From the NCBI GenBank assembly GCA_949841045.1, contig CATKXS010000007.1, positions 1 through 58,221 of the forward strand: a stretch of 58,221 bases of DNA. Reading direction: 5' to 3'. This DNA is from an uncultured Clostridia bacterium (lineage in GTDB: Bacteria > Bacillota > Clostridia > Christensenellales > UBA1242). A model generated the notes under the pieces. That model did no database searches and had not been told where the DNA came from. It saw nothing but the letters and a program-made list of their open reading frames with translations. Shown here piece by piece: positions 1 through 45,108 of this stretch; the stretch's first letter is position 1, and each line of letters begins with the position of its first letter. Both the position numbers and the translations under genes were made by a program.

Positions 1-1630
1 TATAACCTTTCCCGTCGTATGTTCCTCTGAAAGGATTTTGTGATTCTCCTATTGGCTCCCAGTAATATGCACCCAAGTCTATATTTGTAACTTGCTCGCA
101 CTCGCCTTCAAAATTGGTTTGCACACCCAGCCACGCTAGGTTCTCAGCCGAAGCTATTTGATATATGCCATTCTTAACTTCTGGTCTGATAGCATGGTTT
201 AACCAGGTTTCTTGCCATACACCATTGAATTCAAGCACTGCCCCATTCGTAGCAGAAAGTCTGTTAACGGACTCGCCTTCGTAGTACTTTTCGCCGTTCC
301 ACTGCCAGTATAGTAGCTGATGTCCAAACTTTGTAACTCCACTTTCTATCACATACTCCTCTGTAAACTGGAGCGTCTTTGACGCTTGGCAGTCAAAACT
401 TATTGTATATTCATTCTCTGTCCACTGTGCAATTAGTAAATGATTTTCTGCGGTCGTCATTTTAGTAGTTGAAGTTAATATTTCTCCGTTTACACTATTC
501 TTCCAGCCTGCAAAGGTATATCCAGTTCTTGTCACTGTTGGCAGTGTGTCATAATTTGTGCCAAATGTAATCGTCTTTGAATTCCAACCATTAACTTCTC
601 CTCCATTTCCGTCTACTGTTACGAGGTAGGAGTTCGCCGTCCACTTAGCATAAAGTTCTATAGTTTGTGTAGTAATTTTATCCCAGTTGCGAGCACTTTT
701 ACCATCTGCAGTATAGTACTGCGTTCCCGTTCCATTACTATTTGTCCAGTAACCGCCAAAATCATAACCAGTTTTTATAGGCAATGAAATAGCTGGCATT
801 GGATTGCCATAGATAGCTTTAATAGTTTTAGTACCAGAAGTTGTGGCGCCCATATCATTTAGTGTAATTTCACTCGCCTTTGCTGTCCACTGAGCATAAA
901 TTGTAATATCGCTTTTTCCCATTCTTGATGAAGAGGTAATCTGAGTTCCGCCACTTGGCGAAGTAAACCAACCTTTAAAATCATAGCCAGTACGCGACAC
1001 TGTTGGAAGTTTGTAATAATAATATTCATTATTTCCAAACAATCTATTTTTGTTTAGACCACTACTGCTCCAACCGTCATAAGAGTCAAATGTTCCCCCC
1101 TGCGGATTGACAGTTAATAAATTTGGCGCAATTTCAAAAACAGGAACAGGATATACATGCCAATTAACCCATTGTGTATATATGTCCATGCTTGTTGATG
1201 TAGAAATTCTATAATAACGATATTCATCATTAGCGTCATCGCTATAGTCTTCATAACGCCACCAACCAGCAAATCTATATCCAGACGGAGCACTAGCCAC
1301 AGTAAAAGTAAGCGTCGTTTTTATAGGTAAATTTATGGCGGTGCTACCTGATATACTATATGAGGTTCCATTTATTCTCATAGAGAAAGAAGGAAATTTA
1401 ACTATATAAGAATTGTCACTAAATTCATCTTCTTCCAGCCATGTATCAACTGAACGTCCAGATACATAAACCGTTCCATTTTCAGCATAGGCAGTATCTT
1501 GTTTTAAATTTGTGTCAGTACTTTGCTGATTCCCCCCCCCCGAATTAGGTAAGGTTAGGGCAAGAGCACCAAATAAGCCAAAGACAAGAGCTACAAAAAT
1601 ATACAAACCAAATCTTTTAATTTTATTCAT
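1..1630 (-). CDS. Large secreted/surface protein with InlB-type repeats (5' part; continues past the left edge)
   Basis: I translated this directly: the frame stays open from the ATG at 1630 to base 1. The N-terminus (MNKIKRFGLYIFVALVFGLFG) is a signal peptide or membrane anchor. About four InlB/Listeria-Bacteroides-type units follow, recognisable by GYxFxGW...YAxWT (GYDFKGW, YAQWTAK, GYDFGGYW, LYAKWTA, GYTFAGW, IAQWTE). The last visible part (NPFRGTYDGKGY) looks like a GLUG-type beta-helix repeat. Such proteins are usually cell-surface adhesins. Oddity: codons 31-34 contain ten consecutive G (C10 on the + strand near 1542-1551), in frame as written, so a one-base slip would abolish the protein. 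An SD (GAGGGG) precedes the start, with a good promoter at 1655-1682. No function beyond surface location can be assigned. Confidence 0.85.
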   Translation of the reverse strand, partial: MNKIKRFGLYIFVALVFGLFGALALTLPNSGGGNQQSTDTNLKQDTAYAENGTVYVSGRSVDTWLEEDEFSDNSYIVKFPSFSMRINGTSYSISGSTAINLPIKTTLTFTVASAPSGYRFAGWWRYEDYSDDANDEYRYYRISTSTSMDIYTQWVNWHVYPVPVFEIAPNLLTVNPQGGTFDSYDGWSSSGLNKNRLFGNNEYYYYKLPTVSRTGYDFKGWFTSPSGGTQITSSSRMGKSDITIYAQWTAKASEITLNDMGATTSGTKTIKAIYGNPMPAISLPIKTGYDFGGYWTNSNGTGTQYYTADGKSARNWDKITTQTIELYAKWTANSYLVTVDGNGGEVNGWNSKTITFGTNYDTLPTVTRTGYTFAGWKNSVNGEILTSTTKMTTAENHLLIAQWTENEYTISFDCQASKTLQFTEEYVIESGVTKFGHQLLYWQWNGEKYYEGESVNRLSATNGAVLEFNGVWQETWLNHAIRPEVKNGIYQIASAENLAWLGVQTNFEGECEQVTNIDLGAYYWEPIGESQNPFRGTYDGKGY

Positions 1631-2554: not shown

Positions 2555-3865
2555 TTATTCTTCCCCCTTTCCTTTAATAACAAACCTAACAGGAGTTCCC
2601 GAAAAATCCACACGCTCTCTAAATCGGTTTTCGAGATAACGCTTATAGGAAATCCCAATAAGCTTTGGATTATTCACGAAAAGCACAAAAGTAGGAGGAC
2701 ACGAAGACGCCTGCGTAATATATCTAATTTTAACCCTCGCCCCATTATGTGCAGGCGGTTCAAAATTAAGTATGGCGTCATGTAATAAATCATTGAGTTG
2801 ACCAGTCGGAATACGTTTTGAGGTGTTTTCATACGCCTCTTCTACAAGCCCCATAACCTGCCCAACACTCGCTCCGGTAAGCGCTGAAACAAAGATAACT
2901 TTAAAATAACTCATAAACGCAAAGTTCTCTTGAAGAAGCCTCATATACTCTTCCTTTGAACATGCTTTTTCGTCCCATTTGTTGACGACTATCACGCTCG
3001 CCTTTCCAGCCTCGTCCACATAGCCAGCAACCCTAAGGTCTTGCTCTGAGATAAGCGCCTTGCTTCCGTCAAGGACAATAAGGACAACATTCGCCTCATC
3101 AATCGCCGACATTGTACGAAGAACACTATATCCCTCAATGGACGCCCTTTCAACAGAACGCTGACGCCTAAGCCCAGCCGTATCCACAAGTGCATAATCT
3201 TTTTTGTTGTATTTGAATGGAACAAGCACCGCATCCCTCGTTGTACCCTCAATATTGCTTACAACAACGCGCTCGTTTCCAATAAGTTTGTTGACAAGAC
3301 TGCTCTTTCCAACATTTGGTCTACCAACAATGGCAATTTTGGTAATATCCTCACCCTCGTCAGTTGTCCTCTCTTTAAAAGATGCAACAACTGCGTCAAG
3401 TATGTCGCCAATGCCTTTACTTTGGTGAACAGAAAGTGGATATGGCACTCCAAGTCCAAGACTATAAAAGTCGTAAGTCTCGCTAACTTCAAAATTGTCA
3501 AGTTTATTGACAACCAAAACAATAGGCGTCTTATATCGTTGAAGTATTGACGCAATCTCTTCGTCGTTTGTAGTCACACCAACTCGTCCGTCTACGATAA
3601 AGACAATGACATCAGCCTCTTGCGCAGCAAATAACGCCTGCTTTTTGATGTCCCCTTGAAAGTGGTCGTCACTGCGGTTGTCAATACCACCCGTATCAAT
3701 CAATGTAAAATCATGACCAGCCCAATTTGCGTCAGCATAAATTCTATCCCTAGTAACACCAGGGGTATCATCAACAATGCTAATTCTTTTCCCGCAAATT
3801 TTATTAAAGAAAGTGCTTTTGCCTACATTAGGCCTACCAAGTACTGCAACAACCGGCTTAATCAT
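2555..3865 (-). CDS. der: Ribosome assembly GTPase Der (EngA)
   Basis: Der is a double-GTPase needed for 50S subunit maturation. Both P-loops are intact: GRPNVGKST near residue 10 and GRPNVGKSS near 180. DTPG/DTAG switch motifs and NKLD/NKWD specificity motifs are present, and the C-terminal KH-like domain ends the 436-aa protein, a normal length. I chose the ATG at 3865 because GAGGT precedes it at the right distance and the protein then starts MIKPVVAVLGRPNVGKS; an in-frame upstream start at 3910 would add 15 residues unlike the family. It forms an operon with plsY. Confidence 0.95.
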   Translation of the reverse strand: MIKPVVAVLGRPNVGKSTFFNKICGKRISIVDDTPGVTRDRIYADANWAGHDFTLIDTGGIDNRSDDHFQGDIKKQALFAAQEADVIVFIVDGRVGVTTNDEEIASILQRYKTPIVLVVNKLDNFEVSETYDFYSLGLGVPYPLSVHQSKGIGDILDAVVASFKERTTDEGEDITKIAIVGRPNVGKSSLVNKLIGNERVVVSNIEGTTRDAVLVPFKYNKKDYALVDTAGLRRQRSVERASIEGYSVLRTMSAIDEANVVLIVLDGSKALISEQDLRVAGYVDEAGKASVIVVNKWDEKACSKEEYMRLLQENFAFMSYFKVIFVSALTGASVGQVMGLVEEAYENTSKRIPTGQLNDLLHDAILNFEPPAHNGARVKIRYITQASSCPPTFVLFVNNPKLIGISYKRYLENRFRERVDFSGTPVRFVIKGKGEE

Positions 3866-3925: not shown

Positions 3926-4000
3926 AAAGAAAACGTTCGATAAATCTTACGTTTTTCTTGCGTTCCTAAAAAAAAGATTAACCAAAGCGGTCAATCTTTA
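3926..4000 (-). terminator. Two tandem terminators behind the XRE cluster
   Basis: On the reverse strand AAAGATTGACC, a short loop and GGTTAATCTTT run into eight T (about 3968-3999). A second stem (AAGAAAAACGT/ACGTTTTCTT) with a T-run lies at about 3926-3958. The first stem begins at the stop codon of the last XRE gene. Confidence 0.7.
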
Positions 4001-4204
4001 AAAGTCTGATAAACAAATAAGATAATCAGCGGTTACATTAAAAAACTTACATAGAATCTTTATTTCTTTACTTCTAATATCTGTTAGTCCATTCTCCCAC
4101 CTACTTATAGAAGCATGAGCCAGCCCTGTCAACTCTGCTAATTTTTCAACCGATAATCCTCTATCTTCTCTTAACTCTTTAATTCTATTTACGACTTCTT
4201 CCAT
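3998..4204 (-). CDS. Small XRE-family transcriptional regulator (tandem paralogue 1)
   Basis: A 68-aa single-domain Cro/C1-type HTH protein. Helix 2-turn-helix 3 is LAELTGLAHASISRWENG, and the C-terminus NVTADYLICLSDF is the tail that ends in DYLLG in relatives. It is the most diverged of three tandem paralogues: recognition-helix residues are HAS instead of KTS or RTS. A TATACT box (4212-4217) ends 7 nt before the ATG and there is no SD, so the mRNA may be leaderless. An 18-bp palindrome (4244-4261) lies just upstream and is a plausible cognate operator. Single-domain proteins like this usually act as dimeric repressors; that role is inferred. Confidence 0.85.
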   Translation of the reverse strand: MEEVVNRIKELREDRGLSVEKLAELTGLAHASISRWENGLTDIRSKEIKILCKFFNVTADYLICLSDF

Positions 4205-4243
4205 ATCAGTTAGTATACTTAATTTATCTCATAAATGGGCGAC

Positions 4244-4261
4244 TCGCTCAGGATTGAGCGA
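4244..4261. promoter_or_regulatory. Perfect 18-bp palindrome, candidate operator A4
   Basis: TCGCTCA-GGAT-TGAGCGA has a 7-4-7 layout identical to that of the palindromes at 4772 and 4813 but a different sequence. It lies between XRE genes 1 and 2, upstream of the TATACT box of gene 1. No T-run follows, so it is not a typical terminator. Confidence 0.6.
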
Positions 4262-4262
4262 T

Positions 4263-4469
4263 TTAGTAATCTGTCTCTCCAAGCAAATAATCCGTAGAAA
4301 CTTTAAAATATCTACTGAGTTTTACAAGTTCGTCACTCTTAATATCTGCAAATCCATTTTCCCACCTACTCAAAGATGTCTTTGATAAACCAGTCGCATC
4401 ACTCAATTCTCTTAAAGTCATTCTCTTTTCAGTTCTTAGTTCTTTCAATCTTTTGCTAAATTCTCTCAT
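4263..4469 (-). CDS. Small XRE-family transcriptional regulator (tandem paralogue 2)
   Basis: A 68-aa one-domain HTH protein (MREFSKRLKELRTEKRM; HTH LSDATGLSKTSLSRWENG; tail STDYLLGETDY). It is closely related to the next gene: the last ~30 residues are nearly the same, while the recognition helix differs (KTSL versus RTSI). I took the ATG at 4469 because it aligns with both paralogues. An upstream in-frame start (4523) would add 18 unrelated residues and overlap the neighbour by 20 bp. A weak SD (AGGGA) precedes it. Confidence 0.85.
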   Translation of the reverse strand: MREFSKRLKELRTEKRMTLRELSDATGLSKTSLSRWENGFADIKSDELVKLSRYFKVSTDYLLGETDY

Positions 4470-4503
4470 ATTTTTCCCTATAAAAAATCTTGGTTTAGAA
4501 AAA

Positions 4504-4710
4504 TTAATAATCACTCTCTCCAAGCAAATAATCCGTAGATACCTTAAAATATCTACTTAATTTTATAAGTTCATCTCCTTTGGCATCTGCAAGACCGTTT
4601 TCCCAACGCCAAATACTTGTCCTTGAAACCCCTGTTTCTTTTTCAAGTTCTAGCATTGTCAAACCTCGCTCAGTCCTTAATTCCTTAACTCTTGTTGCTA
4701 ATTTTCTCAT
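4504..4710 (-). CDS. Small XRE-family transcriptional regulator (tandem paralogue 3)
   Basis: A 68-aa one-domain HTH protein (HTH ELEKETGVSRTSIWRWENG; tail STDYLLGESDY), first gene of the tandem array and facing the small HTH gene at 4858. There is no SD; a TAAAAT box at 4717-4722 ends exactly 6 nt before the ATG, so the transcript may start at or next to the start codon, as with lambda cI from PRM. The divergent region holds three operator-like palindromes, so autoregulation and control of the facing gene are likely (inferred). Confidence 0.87.
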   Translation of the reverse strand: MRKLATRVKELRTERGLTMLELEKETGVSRTSIWRWENGLADAKGDELIKLSRYFKVSTDYLLGESDY

Positions 4711-4748
4711 GAAAGAATTTTAGCCATATAATTTCATTTTTACCCCTC

Positions 4749-4766
4749 TATCACGGTTTAGAGATA
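4749..4766. promoter_or_regulatory. Operator-like site A1 (degenerate)
   Basis: TATCACG-GTTT-AGAGATA: the left arm equals that of the perfect palindrome at 4772 and the right arm matches at 5 of 7 positions. Centre-to-centre distance to that site is 23 bp. Confidence 0.5.
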
Positions 4767-4771
4767 GAAAA

Positions 4772-4789
4772 TATCACGTTTCCGTGATA
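4772..4789. promoter_or_regulatory. Perfect palindromic operator A2
   Basis: TATCACG-TTTC-CGTGATA is a perfect 7-4-7 inverted repeat. It lies between the XRE array and the -35 box of the divergent gene at 4858. Confidence 0.7.
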
Positions 4790-4806
4790 AAATTTATTAA
4801 CTTTGT

Positions 4807-4836
4807 TTGACTTATCCCATTTCTGGGATATATAAT
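4807..4836 (+). promoter_or_regulatory. Promoter of the small HTH gene with operator A3 filling its spacer
   Basis: TTGACT (4807-4812) and TATAAT (4831-4836) are separated by exactly 18 nt. Those 18 nt (4813-4830) are a perfect palindrome, TATCCCA-TTTC-TGGGATA, with the same layout and TTTC centre as A2. A protein bound there would exclude RNA polymerase. Confidence 0.75.
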
Positions 4837-4857
4837 TTAGATATAAAAGGAGTACCT

Positions 4858-5127
4858 ATGCACATTCTTGATAATTATCAAATCACCGAAATTGAAGTAA
4901 AAAAGGTTAACTGCGAATTTATCGTTAAATATATTAAAGACAAAAACCTCACACCAAAAGATTTTGCCAAAAGATGCGGCGTCAAAATTTCTGACCTCAA
5001 CAAAATACTGAACTACACTGTTCCAATAGAGTGTATTTTAAAAATCGAGAGATTAATCGGGCTTGAAAAATATAGCCTAATAGAAAAGCCTAATCTTTCA
5101 AAAGGCAATGTCTTTTATTTCGATTAA
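4858..5127 (+). CDS. Small degenerate HTH-like protein (divergent partner A)
   Basis: 89 aa from the ATG at 4858, chosen because AAAGGAG ends 5 nt upstream and a strong promoter precedes it. Residues ~20-60 (FIVKYIKDKNLTPKDFAKRC...ISDLNKILN) look like a degenerate Cro/C1 helix set. The same pattern, I-x3-Y...L(S/T)K-x2-F(C/A)K...L-x2-IL, occurs in the partners of the other two XRE loci (24791 and 44588), so the three form one small family. Function unknown; by context it could be an antirepressor, co-regulator or the regulated effector. Confidence 0.75.
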   Translation: MHILDNYQITEIEVKKVNCEFIVKYIKDKNLTPKDFAKRCGVKISDLNKILNYTVPIECILKIERLIGLEKYSLIEKPNLSKGNVFYFD

Positions 5128-5130
5128 CGA

Positions 5131-5271
5131 ACCAATTGTTCGACGAGTATCGTAAATTGTATTTAAAATTTTTAAGAAAATTGTGTTCCCGCAACCAAAT
5201 GTTCGACGAGTATCGTAAATTGTATTTAAAATTTTAAGAAAATTGTGTTCCCGCAACCAAATGTTCGACGA
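5131..5271. repeat. Tandem copies of a dispersed ~62-bp intergenic repeat
   Basis: Two copies of 63 and 62 bp start at 5131 and 5194, with a partial third from 5256. Each contains ACCAAATGTTCGACGAG, TATCGTAAATTGTATTT and TTGTGTTCCCGC. Related copies lie at about 6361-6460 and 57000-57150, some carrying an extra 15-bp palindrome. Confidence 0.75.
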
Positions 5272-9093: not shown

Positions 9094-10620
9094 ATGAAAA
9101 AAACTGAAGGTACATTAAAATCAAAAAAACCAAGAGCACTTCTTAAAAAATTAGGTGCTTTTCTCGCTATCGCTGGAATCGGCGTTGCATCTGCTTTAGG
9201 CTTTGTTGGTTGCGTAGACAGCTCATCACCTACACCAACCCCTACTCCAACACCAGGTCCAGGACCAGTAGTGCCACCTGTTACAATCACTATGACTTTT
9301 GATGACTTTATCAATGACCACTCTTCTGATGCAGTAAGATTCTTTGAAGATAACATCAGACCAGCCGTTGTTGAAAACAAAGATGTTAAAGCTGAAAACT
9401 GGCACCTTAACGATAAGGACGGAGATAATAAAGTTGAAAGCGCAAGCATGAGCTTTGTTTACAGCCTTAACGACACTGAACGCGCAGTTCAAGTTGCAAA
9501 CGTAACATTTAACCCAGTTGATGTTCAAGATATTGTTGACGGAAAAGTAACTTCAGTAAACACAACCGTTTCACGTGAAGATGTATTCACCTTTGACGCA
9601 AAAGTTAACTATCAAAATCAAGACCTCGCCACTGCACTCTATAATGCAGCAAATATCAACTCTGACACAAAATTATTCCAAGATACTGGTATCGGCAATA
9701 GTATTAGACAATTTATAGTTTTAGATATGTCTGATACAGACATTAAATTAAGTTATGTTGCCTCAAATGCTGGCGACGGTTCAATAGACGCTTTCCTTGA
9801 GAATCTTGCCAAAAACCCTATGGTTGCAACAAAATCTGAAACAAAGCTTGATGGCGCTACACTCTATAGCACAGGTTATACTCTTGAAAAGTTTGAAGAG
9901 ACTGAAAAACCAGGTCCAGGACCAGAAATCCCACCAGAAACAAATATAACAAATGCCGAAATCATCTCAGCTCTTGAAGAAAACTGCATTGATGGAATTG
10001 TTGATGCAACATTCATTGGTGGTTTAAAACAAAATAAGGAAAAAATAACTGACGGAACTTGGTATTTAACTACAAACACAGACGGAAATATAACAAAAGC
10101 AGAATACGCTTATACTTACCAATTGAGCAGTGATTCTTCATATTATGTAATCACCGAAGTAAACTTTAGTAGTCCTTTAACTGCTGATAATATTAAAGAT
10201 GGCGATATAAATGGAATTGCTAATAATACTTATACATCTAAAGGATATAAACTTTCTATTCAAGACACTAATGCAGAACTTACACAAGCAATCTGCGACA
10301 AAGCTTTTGGCGAAAGCAACACTGCAACTAGATATATTATTGAAGGAGTTGATGGAAATGATTCTCAATTGGGAATTACTCATTCTTTCACAGTTATTCA
10401 AATTGAAGACGGCAATGTAAAAGAAGCAACTATTATTATTAAAAATGATAGTGCCGGTTATGTTGCAAATATAAACAACGGAAAGCATAAAGACGTAACT
10501 TATGGCAAATCTTATGAACTTTCTGGAGAAAAAGTGTCAGTAGAAGCAAATGATAATACTCAAGAATCAAATTATCGTTATGCTGTTGAATTTGGTGATG
10601 ATGAATTATATTATCTTTAA
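9094..10620 (+). CDS. Secreted lipoprotein with duplicated domain
   Basis: 508 aa. A basic N-terminus, a hydrophobic stretch and FVGC (Cys ~41) form a lipoprotein signal. A Pro/Thr linker (TPTPTPTPGPGP) follows, then two related ~200-aa domains separated by a second PGPGPEIPPE linker. Both contain a helix, NWHL/TWYL followed by DGDNKVESA or DGNITKAE, a YSLN/YQLS strand, and then V(T/S)FNP or VNFSSP with I-x-DGxxxxxxN-T. This points to an internal duplication. I do not recognise the family. It is probably anchored outside the membrane; substrate unknown. Its own promoter and terminator make it a single-gene unit. Confidence 0.85.
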   Translation: MKKTEGTLKSKKPRALLKKLGAFLAIAGIGVASALGFVGCVDSSSPTPTPTPTPGPGPVVPPVTITMTFDDFINDHSSDAVRFFEDNIRPAVVENKDVKAENWHLNDKDGDNKVESASMSFVYSLNDTERAVQVANVTFNPVDVQDIVDGKVTSVNTTVSREDVFTFDAKVNYQNQDLATALYNAANINSDTKLFQDTGIGNSIRQFIVLDMSDTDIKLSYVASNAGDGSIDAFLENLAKNPMVATKSETKLDGATLYSTGYTLEKFEETEKPGPGPEIPPETNITNAEIISALEENCIDGIVDATFIGGLKQNKEKITDGTWYLTTNTDGNITKAEYAYTYQLSSDSSYYVITEVNFSSPLTADNIKDGDINGIANNTYTSKGYKLSIQDTNAELTQAICDKAFGESNTATRYIIEGVDGNDSQLGITHSFTVIQIEDGNVKEATIIIKNDSAGYVANINNGKHKDVTYGKSYELSGEKVSVEANDNTQESNYRYAVEFGDDELYYL

Positions 10621-24497: not shown

Positions 24498-24702
24498 AAA
24501 AATCTTTTATGCCAAGTAAATAATCAGCACTTTCACCTAAGACATTACAAATCGTAATTAAGCCATCAAGTGTAGGCTCTCTTTTTCCCGTACAATAATT
24601 ATTTACTATAGTTCTTGACATGCCAATCATTTTTGCAAATTGATATTGTGATATACTCTTCTCTTTTAATATTTCTGTCAATCTCTCACTAAATTTATTC
24701 AT
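24496..24702 (-). CDS. Small XRE-family repressor, locus B
   Basis: 68 aa from the ATG at 24702 (MNKFSERLTEILKEKSISQYQFAKMIGMSRTIVNNYCTGKREP...ESADYLLGIKDF). A single Cro/C1 domain with the same DYLLG tail as loci A and C. A TTG two codons upstream is an unlikely start. TATAAT (24709-24714) ends 6 nt before this ATG and no SD exists, so translation is probably leaderless. An operator (24715-24727) abuts that -10 box, which suggests autoregulation. Confidence 0.87.
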   Translation of the reverse strand: MNKFSERLTEILKEKSISQYQFAKMIGMSRTIVNNYCTGKREPTLDGLITICNVLGESADYLLGIKDF

Positions 24703-44901: not shown

Positions 44902-45108
44902 ATGAATAAATTTGGCGAAAGATTAAAAGAACTAAGACTTGAAAAAAGATTAAGCCAAAGACAACTTGCCAATGATGTAGGATATAAACAATCTTCAATA
45001 GTACGTTGGGAAAAAGGATTGCAGACACCAAACATTGATGTTGCAATTGTTTTTGCAAAATATTTTAAAGTTACAACAGACTATTTGTTAGGATTAGAAG
45101 ATTATTAA
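44902..45108 (+). CDS. Small XRE-family repressor, locus C
   Basis: 68 aa (MNKFGERLKELRLEKRLSQRQLANDVGYKQSSIVRWEKGLQTPNIDVAIVFAKYFKVTTDYLLGLEDY), same size, domain and DYLLG tail as the XRE proteins of loci A and B. Unlike loci A and B it has a good SD (AAAGGAG, 5 nt). Three regularly spaced operators (29-bp steps) separate it from its divergent partner. Confidence 0.9.
   Translation: MNKFGERLKELRLEKRLSQRQLANDVGYKQSSIVRWEKGLQTPNIDVAIVFAKYFKVTTDYLLGLEDY

Follow-up and report, generated by a model that had tools for sequence, protein, structure and literature searches.

A locus of four small genes, termed locus A, was analyzed in a stretch of 58,221 nucleotides (the window) from an uncultured Clostridia bacterium (contig CATKXS010000007.1 of GenBank assembly GCA_949841045.1), which is part of a 1.16-Mb genome present in 34 contigs and 95% complete. 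Locus A lies between der and holA and consists of three 68-amino-acid (aa) XRE genes on the reverse strand and a divergent 89-aa gene, the partner, on the forward strand. These analyses indicated that locus A is probably a self-contained cassette composed of a divergent helix-turn-helix (HTH)-like partner and three tandem P22 C2-related mini-repressors, in which repressors and 18-bp dyads have diverged together, and that the same design, as judged from sequence, recurs many times with other operator sequences in the genus and order. In the proposed mechanism, each repressor would bind as a dimer to operators over the array promoter and the partner promoter and would repress both; the operator positions and the overlap with the partner promoter were observed directly in the sequence. 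After duplication, repressors and operators would diverge jointly, with residue 31 (taken as the start of the recognition helix) reading half-site positions 2 and 3, residue 32 position 5, residue 36 position 6 and residue 42 position 7. Gene 1, with His31 where relatives have Lys31, would recognize TCGCTCA; gene 2, which retains the Lys31-Ser/Thr32 of relatives, would recognize TATCCCA in the partner promoter; and gene 3 would recognize TATCACG upstream of itself. The old question addressed by such a locus is how a repressor and its site can change jointly after duplication without loss of control.

The three XRE genes, predicted as 68-aa paralogues in an earlier note made from the sequence of the window, were confirmed as open reading frames. 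Gene 1 (3998 to 4204, reverse strand; recognition helix A-H-A-S-I-S-R), gene 2 (4263 to 4469, reverse strand; S-K-T-S-L-S-R) and gene 3 (4504 to 4710, reverse strand; S-R-T-S-I-W-R), the head of the array, scored 58.4, 57.7 and 56.1 bits, respectively, against HTH_3, gene 2 being scored with one extra codon ahead of its ATG. All three thus exceeded the cut-off of 23 bits and were of the Cro/C1 type. The further claim that the paralogues differ mainly in the recognition helix was not borne out. In full-length comparisons, genes 2 and 3 were identical at 46 of 68 positions, genes 1 and 2 at 29 and genes 1 and 3 at 30; within aa 28 to 39, the corresponding counts were 8, 8 and 7 of 12. Genes 2 and 3, which are separated by a 34-nucleotide gap, were sisters in a tree (85/85, weakly resolved) while gene 1 formed a long branch; this tree was based on 67 columns, and most forks were weak, with 5 of 36 inner branches well supported.

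Three perfect 18-bp palindromes with a 7-4-7 layout and differing arms were found, in agreement with the earlier note. These candidate operators are TCGCTCA-N4-TGAGCGA upstream of gene 1 (4244 to 4261), TATCACG-TTTC-CGTGATA between gene 3 and the partner (4772 to 4789) and TATCCCA-TTTC-TGGGATA (4813 to 4830), the last of which exactly fills the spacer of the promoter-like TTGACT-18-TATAAT element of the partner (4807 to 4836, forward strand; 11 of 12 consensus letters), again as predicted. The degenerate TATCACG copy was also detected upstream of gene 3 (TATCACG-GTTT-AGAGATA, 4749 to 4766; 12 of 14 arm letters) and is a hybrid of the halves TATCACG and TATCTCT. A second imperfect candidate, TCGCCCA-TTTA-TGAGATA (4225 to 4242, reverse strand), had been overlooked; it adjoins gene 1 and starts 19 bp from the start of the 4244 site, while the sites ahead of gene 3 are spaced at 23 and 41 bp. 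Candidate dyads therefore adjoin genes 3 and 1, and for gene 2 an upstream site of its own was not called (P = 0.39). Three candidate sites (4749, 4772 and 4813) lie between gene 3 and the divergent, weakly HTH-like partner, a layout resembling that of a lysogeny switch.

The window contained 14 perfect 7-4-7 palindromes, of which 6 had at least two G/C letters per arm, and 3 of these 6 were in the 1,130-bp locus. In 20,000 shuffles of locus A, three such palindromes were never obtained and two were obtained 30 times. Exact TATC[AC]C[AG] sites were detected in the genome at 4772 and 4813 only, with three one-mismatch matches inside open frames of 137, 345 and 460 aa. The TCGCTCA palindrome occurred at 4244 only, with none other within one mismatch and one with two mismatches. 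These genome-wide searches covered the perfect site types, and the predicted sites suggest a circuit that looks closed on itself. The equal geometry of the palindromes is unsurprising, because this geometry is typical of the whole family described below and of P22/434-type operators.

A relative of gene 3 (E ≤ 0.001) was present in 106 of 112 genomes of the genus, with up to 31 relatives per genome. Family genes were taken from stretches around the best matches listed, excluding three duplicate loci of the same genome and matches below 40 bits. Among the matches listed there were 236 distinct XRE genes, and 227 of these encoded 90 aa or fewer even though no length filter was applied. A site caller using DNA alone, which looks for repeated 18-bp dyads upstream (P ≤ 0.05), was run on 233 of the 236 genes. 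Significant repeated dyads were detected for 102 of these listed genes, comprising 97 of 195 array heads and 5 of 38 tandem followers. With 40 shuffles, the same caller was positive for 94 of 195 upstream regions versus 8 of 195 gene bodies. Successive sites were spaced at 26 to 30 bp in 75 of 107 intervals. At positions used for calling, the proportion of complementary pairs was 0.76 to 0.91 at 3 to 8 letters from the dyad center and 0.59 at 9; at positions not used for calling, it was 0.49 to 0.57 in the 4-bp center and 0.30 to 0.45 outside the dyad. The family dyad thus has arms of 6 to 7 bp around a little-paired 4-bp center. Spacers of 0, 2 and 4 bp gave 89, 99 and 94 positive heads of 195 and spacers of 1, 3 and 5 bp gave 35, 48 and 42; the even spacers score alike because the dyads are nested, and the exact 7-4-7 cut is therefore a convention.

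Outside the genus, 16 of 25 short XRE genes of the order had significant sites, as did neither of its 2 long ones. In a sample of the phylum, such sites were detected for 4 of 29 long XRE genes and for none of the 7 short ones. These phylum-sample and long-XRE counts mean that the layout is not established beyond the order. On these comparisons of sequence, locus A belongs with XRE repressors, mostly stand-alone, that form a family spanning the genus and the order and have predicted 18-bp operators upstream.

Other members and arrangements were noted in passing. The window contains a second cassette, in which an XRE gene at 44902 to 45105 (forward strand) is preceded by three TGATGC-type sites at distances of approximately 98, 69 and 40 bp; its divergent partner is an HTH-like protein of 67 aa. 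Another short XRE gene (24499 to 24702, reverse strand) has TTGGCTATTAGCCA twice upstream, which by eye is an odd-centered dyad and so of another geometry. In six loci (L060, L116, L126, L136, L149 and L186), XRE genes form divergent pairs and the same operators were called between them.

Co-variation between repressors and sites was analyzed with 86 genes having convincing sites, from which 12 sharing sites with a divergent XRE were removed before thinning to 64. Operator similarity followed recognition-helix identity (Mantel correlation of 0.312, and 0.281 after controlling for the remainder of the domain; P = 0.0002). The columns tracking the bases were 31 for half-site positions 2 and 3, 32 for position 5, 36 for position 6 and 42 for position 7. 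When the set was reduced further to 32 clusters (60% identity), the top column was still 31 for positions 2 and 3, 32 for position 5 and 42 for position 7, while no clear column was obtained for positions 1 and 4. Among individual residues and bases, C6 was present in 25 of 31 genes with R36 (gene 3 included) and in 1 of 33 without it, and A3 accompanied Q31 in 10 of 11 genes and occurred without Q31 in 14 of 53. His31 followed by Ala32 or Val32 was associated with G3 in all three genes with this combination, three other His31 genes lacked G3, and G3 was present in only 7 of the 64 genes. Recognition-helix residues thus co-vary statistically with operator bases across the family, and co-divergence of repressor and operator is, for the family, well supported by these sequence correlations.

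Columns 31, 32 and 36 correspond to residues 1, 2 and 6 of the recognition helix in our numbering and agree with the contacts made by Gln28, Gln29 and Gln33 of the 434 repressor. Helix residues 1, 2 and 6 are also those named for HTH proteins in the available portion of PMC5045206, and residue-base correlations of the same kind are the subject of factor-site studies of the MerR, GntR, IclR and LacI families; those studies differ in dealing with other families, whereas the correlations presented here concern paralogous XRE cassettes with sites beside the gene. Column 42 seems to act like the residue outside the helix that, according to the accessible part of PMC3317979, sets an inner operator position in a model of the 933W repressor.

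An alternative reading takes the palindromes for RNA hairpins or terminators instead of operators; in its favor, the 4772 and 4813 palindromes were flagged as terminator-like in a scan. This reading is highly improbable and was rejected: site bases follow the DNA-reading residues of the adjacent repressor throughout the family, the 4813 palindrome sits in a promoter spacer, and such sites are rare in gene bodies.

The residue-to-base code was then used for prediction of operators from protein sequence. In a held-out test within the genus that excluded relatives with at least 60% identity, the own operator had a mean rank of 0.146, versus 0.512 for the control, and was in the top tenth for 40 of 64 genes, although these ranks are partly circular since the contact columns were picked on the same 64 genes. 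The code was next applied, with columns set in advance, to 18 out-of-genus genes, which were unthinned and included at least one pair of near copies (L303 and L306); these had a mean rank of 0.177, versus 0.458 for the control, and none of 3,000 permutations gave a value as low. The subset of 15 genes from other families of the order had a mean rank of 0.107.

At locus A, all three proteins carry R36 and all three arms carry C6. Gene 1 had a code score of +2.87 on TCGCTCA and of −1.29 and −0.72 on the TATC-type palindromes. Its His31-Ala32 and the G3 of TCGCTCA match the family trend, and this pair was outside the set of 64 genes. Gene 2 scored 1.56 and 1.40 on TATCACG and TATCCCA, respectively, and −4.42 on TCGCTCA. 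The pairing of gene 1 with TCGCTCA is therefore supported by the code, whereas the placing of gene 2 on TATCCCA in the partner promoter and of gene 3 on TATCACG upstream of itself is the most likely arrangement on the basis of relatives and elimination. Cross-binding between the sites of genes 2 and 3 is likely.

The homologous place was examined in related genomes. Two of these, G076 and G099, have a partner and three XRE genes between holA and der, and G099 has a second, identical partner copy facing a different XRE. In each genome, two XREs with an S-K-S-(A/S/T) helix have TTTCCCA/ATTCCC/TATCTC-type sites upstream, the best matching in 13 to 14 of 14 letters. In a directed scan, whose half-sites were chosen after reading these regions, shuffles as good were obtained in 5, 0, 0 and 0 of 2,000 for these four XREs; the two XREs with other helices had no such site, 637 and 1,722 of 2,000 shuffles being as good. 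The general caller found two of the four (P = 0.03 and 0.04). The TATCTCA half of the 4225 site is the start-proximal half for three of the four matching XREs, the fourth having TATCTCT. Gene 2 (S-K-T-S, with TATCCCA) looks like the shared state and genes 1 and 3 like departures from it, the direction of change being suggested by a comparison of three genomes. As to whether the palindromes are conserved in relatives that keep the genes, sites of the same geometry are present at the homologous places, but four of the XREs share one type and two have no such site. Locus A and its two same-place relatives form a compact test case, since one lineage has three palindromes and two have mostly one shared type.

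A number of results weigh against joint divergence as the full explanation. The rest of the domain also followed the operator (0.158 given the helix), and shared descent is therefore part of the signal. Column 22 outranked column 36, which was second, for position 6 after thinning to 32 clusters. For viral contigs, the code was weak or borderline (mean rank of 0.335 versus 0.474; n = 10; 0.05 of permutations as low). Avoidance between operators within a genome was not found (2.33 versus 2.48 of 7, with 0.133 of permutations as low), so that selection for insulation is unsupported. At locus A, gene 3 obtained its top score on TCGCTCA (6.33, Arg31 being rare) rather than on TATCACG and TATCCCA (4.24 and 4.08), the latter two received nearly equal scores for genes 2 and 3 alike, and gene 2 was among the 33 of 38 tandem followers without a significant site of their own. 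In the relatives, the array heads of G076 and G099 escaped the general caller, which picked other motifs there (P = 0.19 and 0.07), and their sites rest on the directed scan; four of the six XREs, two from each genome, have a single operator type in common.

Some of these results fit a reading in which there is one specificity at locus A, with genes 2 and 3, perhaps as heterodimers, binding all TATC.C sites, only gene 1 differing and the palindromes being variants in affinity. Five of the seven letters agree between TATCACG and TATCCCA, the proteins of genes 2 and 3 both have Ala at residue 42, and their aa 40 to 68 match in 24 of 29 positions, which would permit heterodimers; the shared operator type of the tandem XREs in G076 and G099 and the hybrid 4749 site point the same way. 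Set against this are the differences between gene 3 (Arg31/Trp35) and gene 2 (Lys31/Ser35; family-alignment numbering) and the finding that only 3 of 39 pairs of tandem neighbors in the genus had the same residues at columns 31, 32 and 36. We regard a single specificity as a possibility of some weight that falls on the doubtful side. The claim that the repressors diversified together with their operators is thus supported for the family and for gene 1 with TCGCTCA, while a one-protein, one-palindrome assignment is unsupported, since TATCACG and TATCCCA are not told apart by the code for genes 2 and 3. Co-divergence at locus A itself is, on this sequence evidence, partly resolved.

The partner (4858 to 5127, forward strand) has an HTH-like core and a C terminus ending in NVFYFD. 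It had been described as a small HTH protein; an HTH-like character and a divergent orientation were observed, but all Pfam matches were below their cut-offs, the best being HTH_37 (E = 9.5e-5). An AlphaFold model based on three sequences was of modest quality (pLDDT of 68), and its fold matches were weak, the best being to yeast Mbf1 (E = 0.013), followed by SinR and HipB. Across the family, a divergent frame with a ribosome-site-like start was present for 140 of 195 heads, and 129 of these frames were of 150 aa or less. One cluster consisted of 75 HTH-like proteins; the partner of locus A is among them, and 21 others match the profile of the XREs themselves. A second cluster of 17 was helical-looking by eye. 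The partner may be a second repressor, an antirepressor or an effector. That it forms a toxin-antitoxin-like or antirepressor pair with the XREs, being toxic or titrating them, is unlikely: PezA- and HipB-type XRE antitoxins are distant relatives and the small partner would be under XRE control, but the search of NCBIfam gave no match and no recognizable toxin, and the partner looks HTH-like and unlike a known toxin.

Further observations were made on the divergent genes. A C-terminal [FYH]FD was present in 11 of 135 complete divergent frames, not all of which look related and two of which are identical copies in one genome; examples are the end of the partner in the window (5109 to 5127) and frames in L003, L020, L024, L061, L064, L089, L097 and L151. 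A genus-wide search for [IV][FY]FD-stop was unspecific, with matches in 94 of 112 genomes and many matches for reversed-pattern controls. Among 30 matches that were fetched, 2 ended frames of 96 and 98 aa beside an XRE gene, 27 ended frames of 4 to 75 aa (in two cases, the locus had an XRE at another position) and one ended a 203-aa frame. The shared -[FYH]FD tail is a lead only. In L235, identical 105-aa partner copies (2581 to 2898 and 3247 to 3564, reverse strand) occur in one genome, each divergent from a different XRE. In L055, an XRE with three CATTCCT/TATTCCT-type sites has as its divergent neighbor a gene (1 to 1404, reverse strand) of the serine-recombinase type, with Resolvase and Recombinase domains.

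The organization of locus A could also be that of a remnant or domesticated lysogeny or immunity switch (cI/cro-like) from a phage or mobile element, now a host regulator or a selfish element. Several operators between divergent regulator genes are found in phage phi11, according to the part of PMC3991615 available. The best PHROG match was the transcriptional regulator phrog_8, a relative of gene 3 is encoded in 590 phage records, and the gene divergent from the XRE in L055 is a recombinase. Moreover, the locus was present at holA-der in three genomes and missing from others in which these genes nearly abut, and the two identical partner copies of G099 face two different XREs. However, repeated sites were significant for just 11 of 78 XREs of viral contigs, the partner was unconfirmed in viral contigs (0 of 305 pattern matches), and no phage or element genes were detected among the five neighboring genes searched by Pfam, in agreement with the earlier note. 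Four of these neighbors are housekeeping genes, matching glycerol-3-phosphate acyltransferase, EngA/Der GTPase, DNA polymerase III delta subunit and a competence protein, and the fifth (9094 to 10620) had no match. A phage or element origin of this kind is accordingly judged rather doubtful.

The closest known systems are repressors of the P22 C2/434 class. Locus A shares with them the size of the HTH domain (P22 C2, E = 3.3e-5; ICEBs1 Xre 7t8i, E = 7.1e-8), several sites between divergent genes and, as in the P22 operators, a dyad with a 4-bp center. The XREs of locus A differ in having no C-terminal domain, no phage around them and many paralogues per genome. Lambda sites are spaced at 23 to 24 bp, unlike the family sites, which are mostly 26 to 30 bp apart, locus A itself having 23 and 41 bp. 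Controller proteins of restriction-modification systems are likewise small XRE autoregulators, with predicted sites in ten motifs (Sorokin et al. 2009, as cited in the portion of PMC6237814 available). A restriction-controller reading of locus A was rejected, as no restriction or methylase gene was present among the five neighboring genes searched. Joint divergence of repressor and operator after duplication is argued for in the accessible text of Poelwijk et al. 2006 (PMC1464816), which describes a simulation on lac data, whereas natural sequences were used here. Within a limited search of the literature, the regulators look to be of a known kind, namely phage-type repressors and controller proteins, and the paralogous cassettes with a readable code look like a new form of that kind.

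The genus sample provides 102 XRE genes with significant sites beside the gene, and the code has predictive value for operators of the other families in the order. We speculate, with considerable reserve, that this Clostridia lineage carries a large and still diversifying set of mini-repressor/partner cassettes with readable residue-to-base rules. Tandem arrays might be the birthplace of new specificities, through duplication, change at residues 31, 32 and 36 and a following change in the operator, and the partner, swapped among unrelated small families, some -[FYH]FD-tailed, might be an effector or antirepressor. The repressor/operator pairs could also supply synthetic circuits with small repressors that use different sites.

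Other arrangements were seen at the der-holA place, holA being beyond the reach of the stretch for many of the der loci examined. The two genes nearly abut in G006, G008 and G025 and also in L239, L241, L243 and L244, sets which may overlap. By reading, G052 has an HTH gene of the partner kind at this place. L251, the nearest by Der (81%), has other small frames there, one of which, of 79 aa, resembles the helical partner group by eye and had no Pfam match. In L237 (1615 to 5001) and L249 (1862 to 5001), holA and der are separated by other genes, three frames of approximately 190, 200 and 450 aa; two of the L237 frames were searched and had no Pfam match. Beside the partner gene in the window (5139 to 5265) is a direct repeat with two copies 63 bp apart, starting TTCGACGAGTATCGTAAATTG, a 21-mer without a match within two mismatches elsewhere in the genome. 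A terminator-like hairpin (3973 to 3999, reverse strand) is present at the end of the XRE array, ahead of der.

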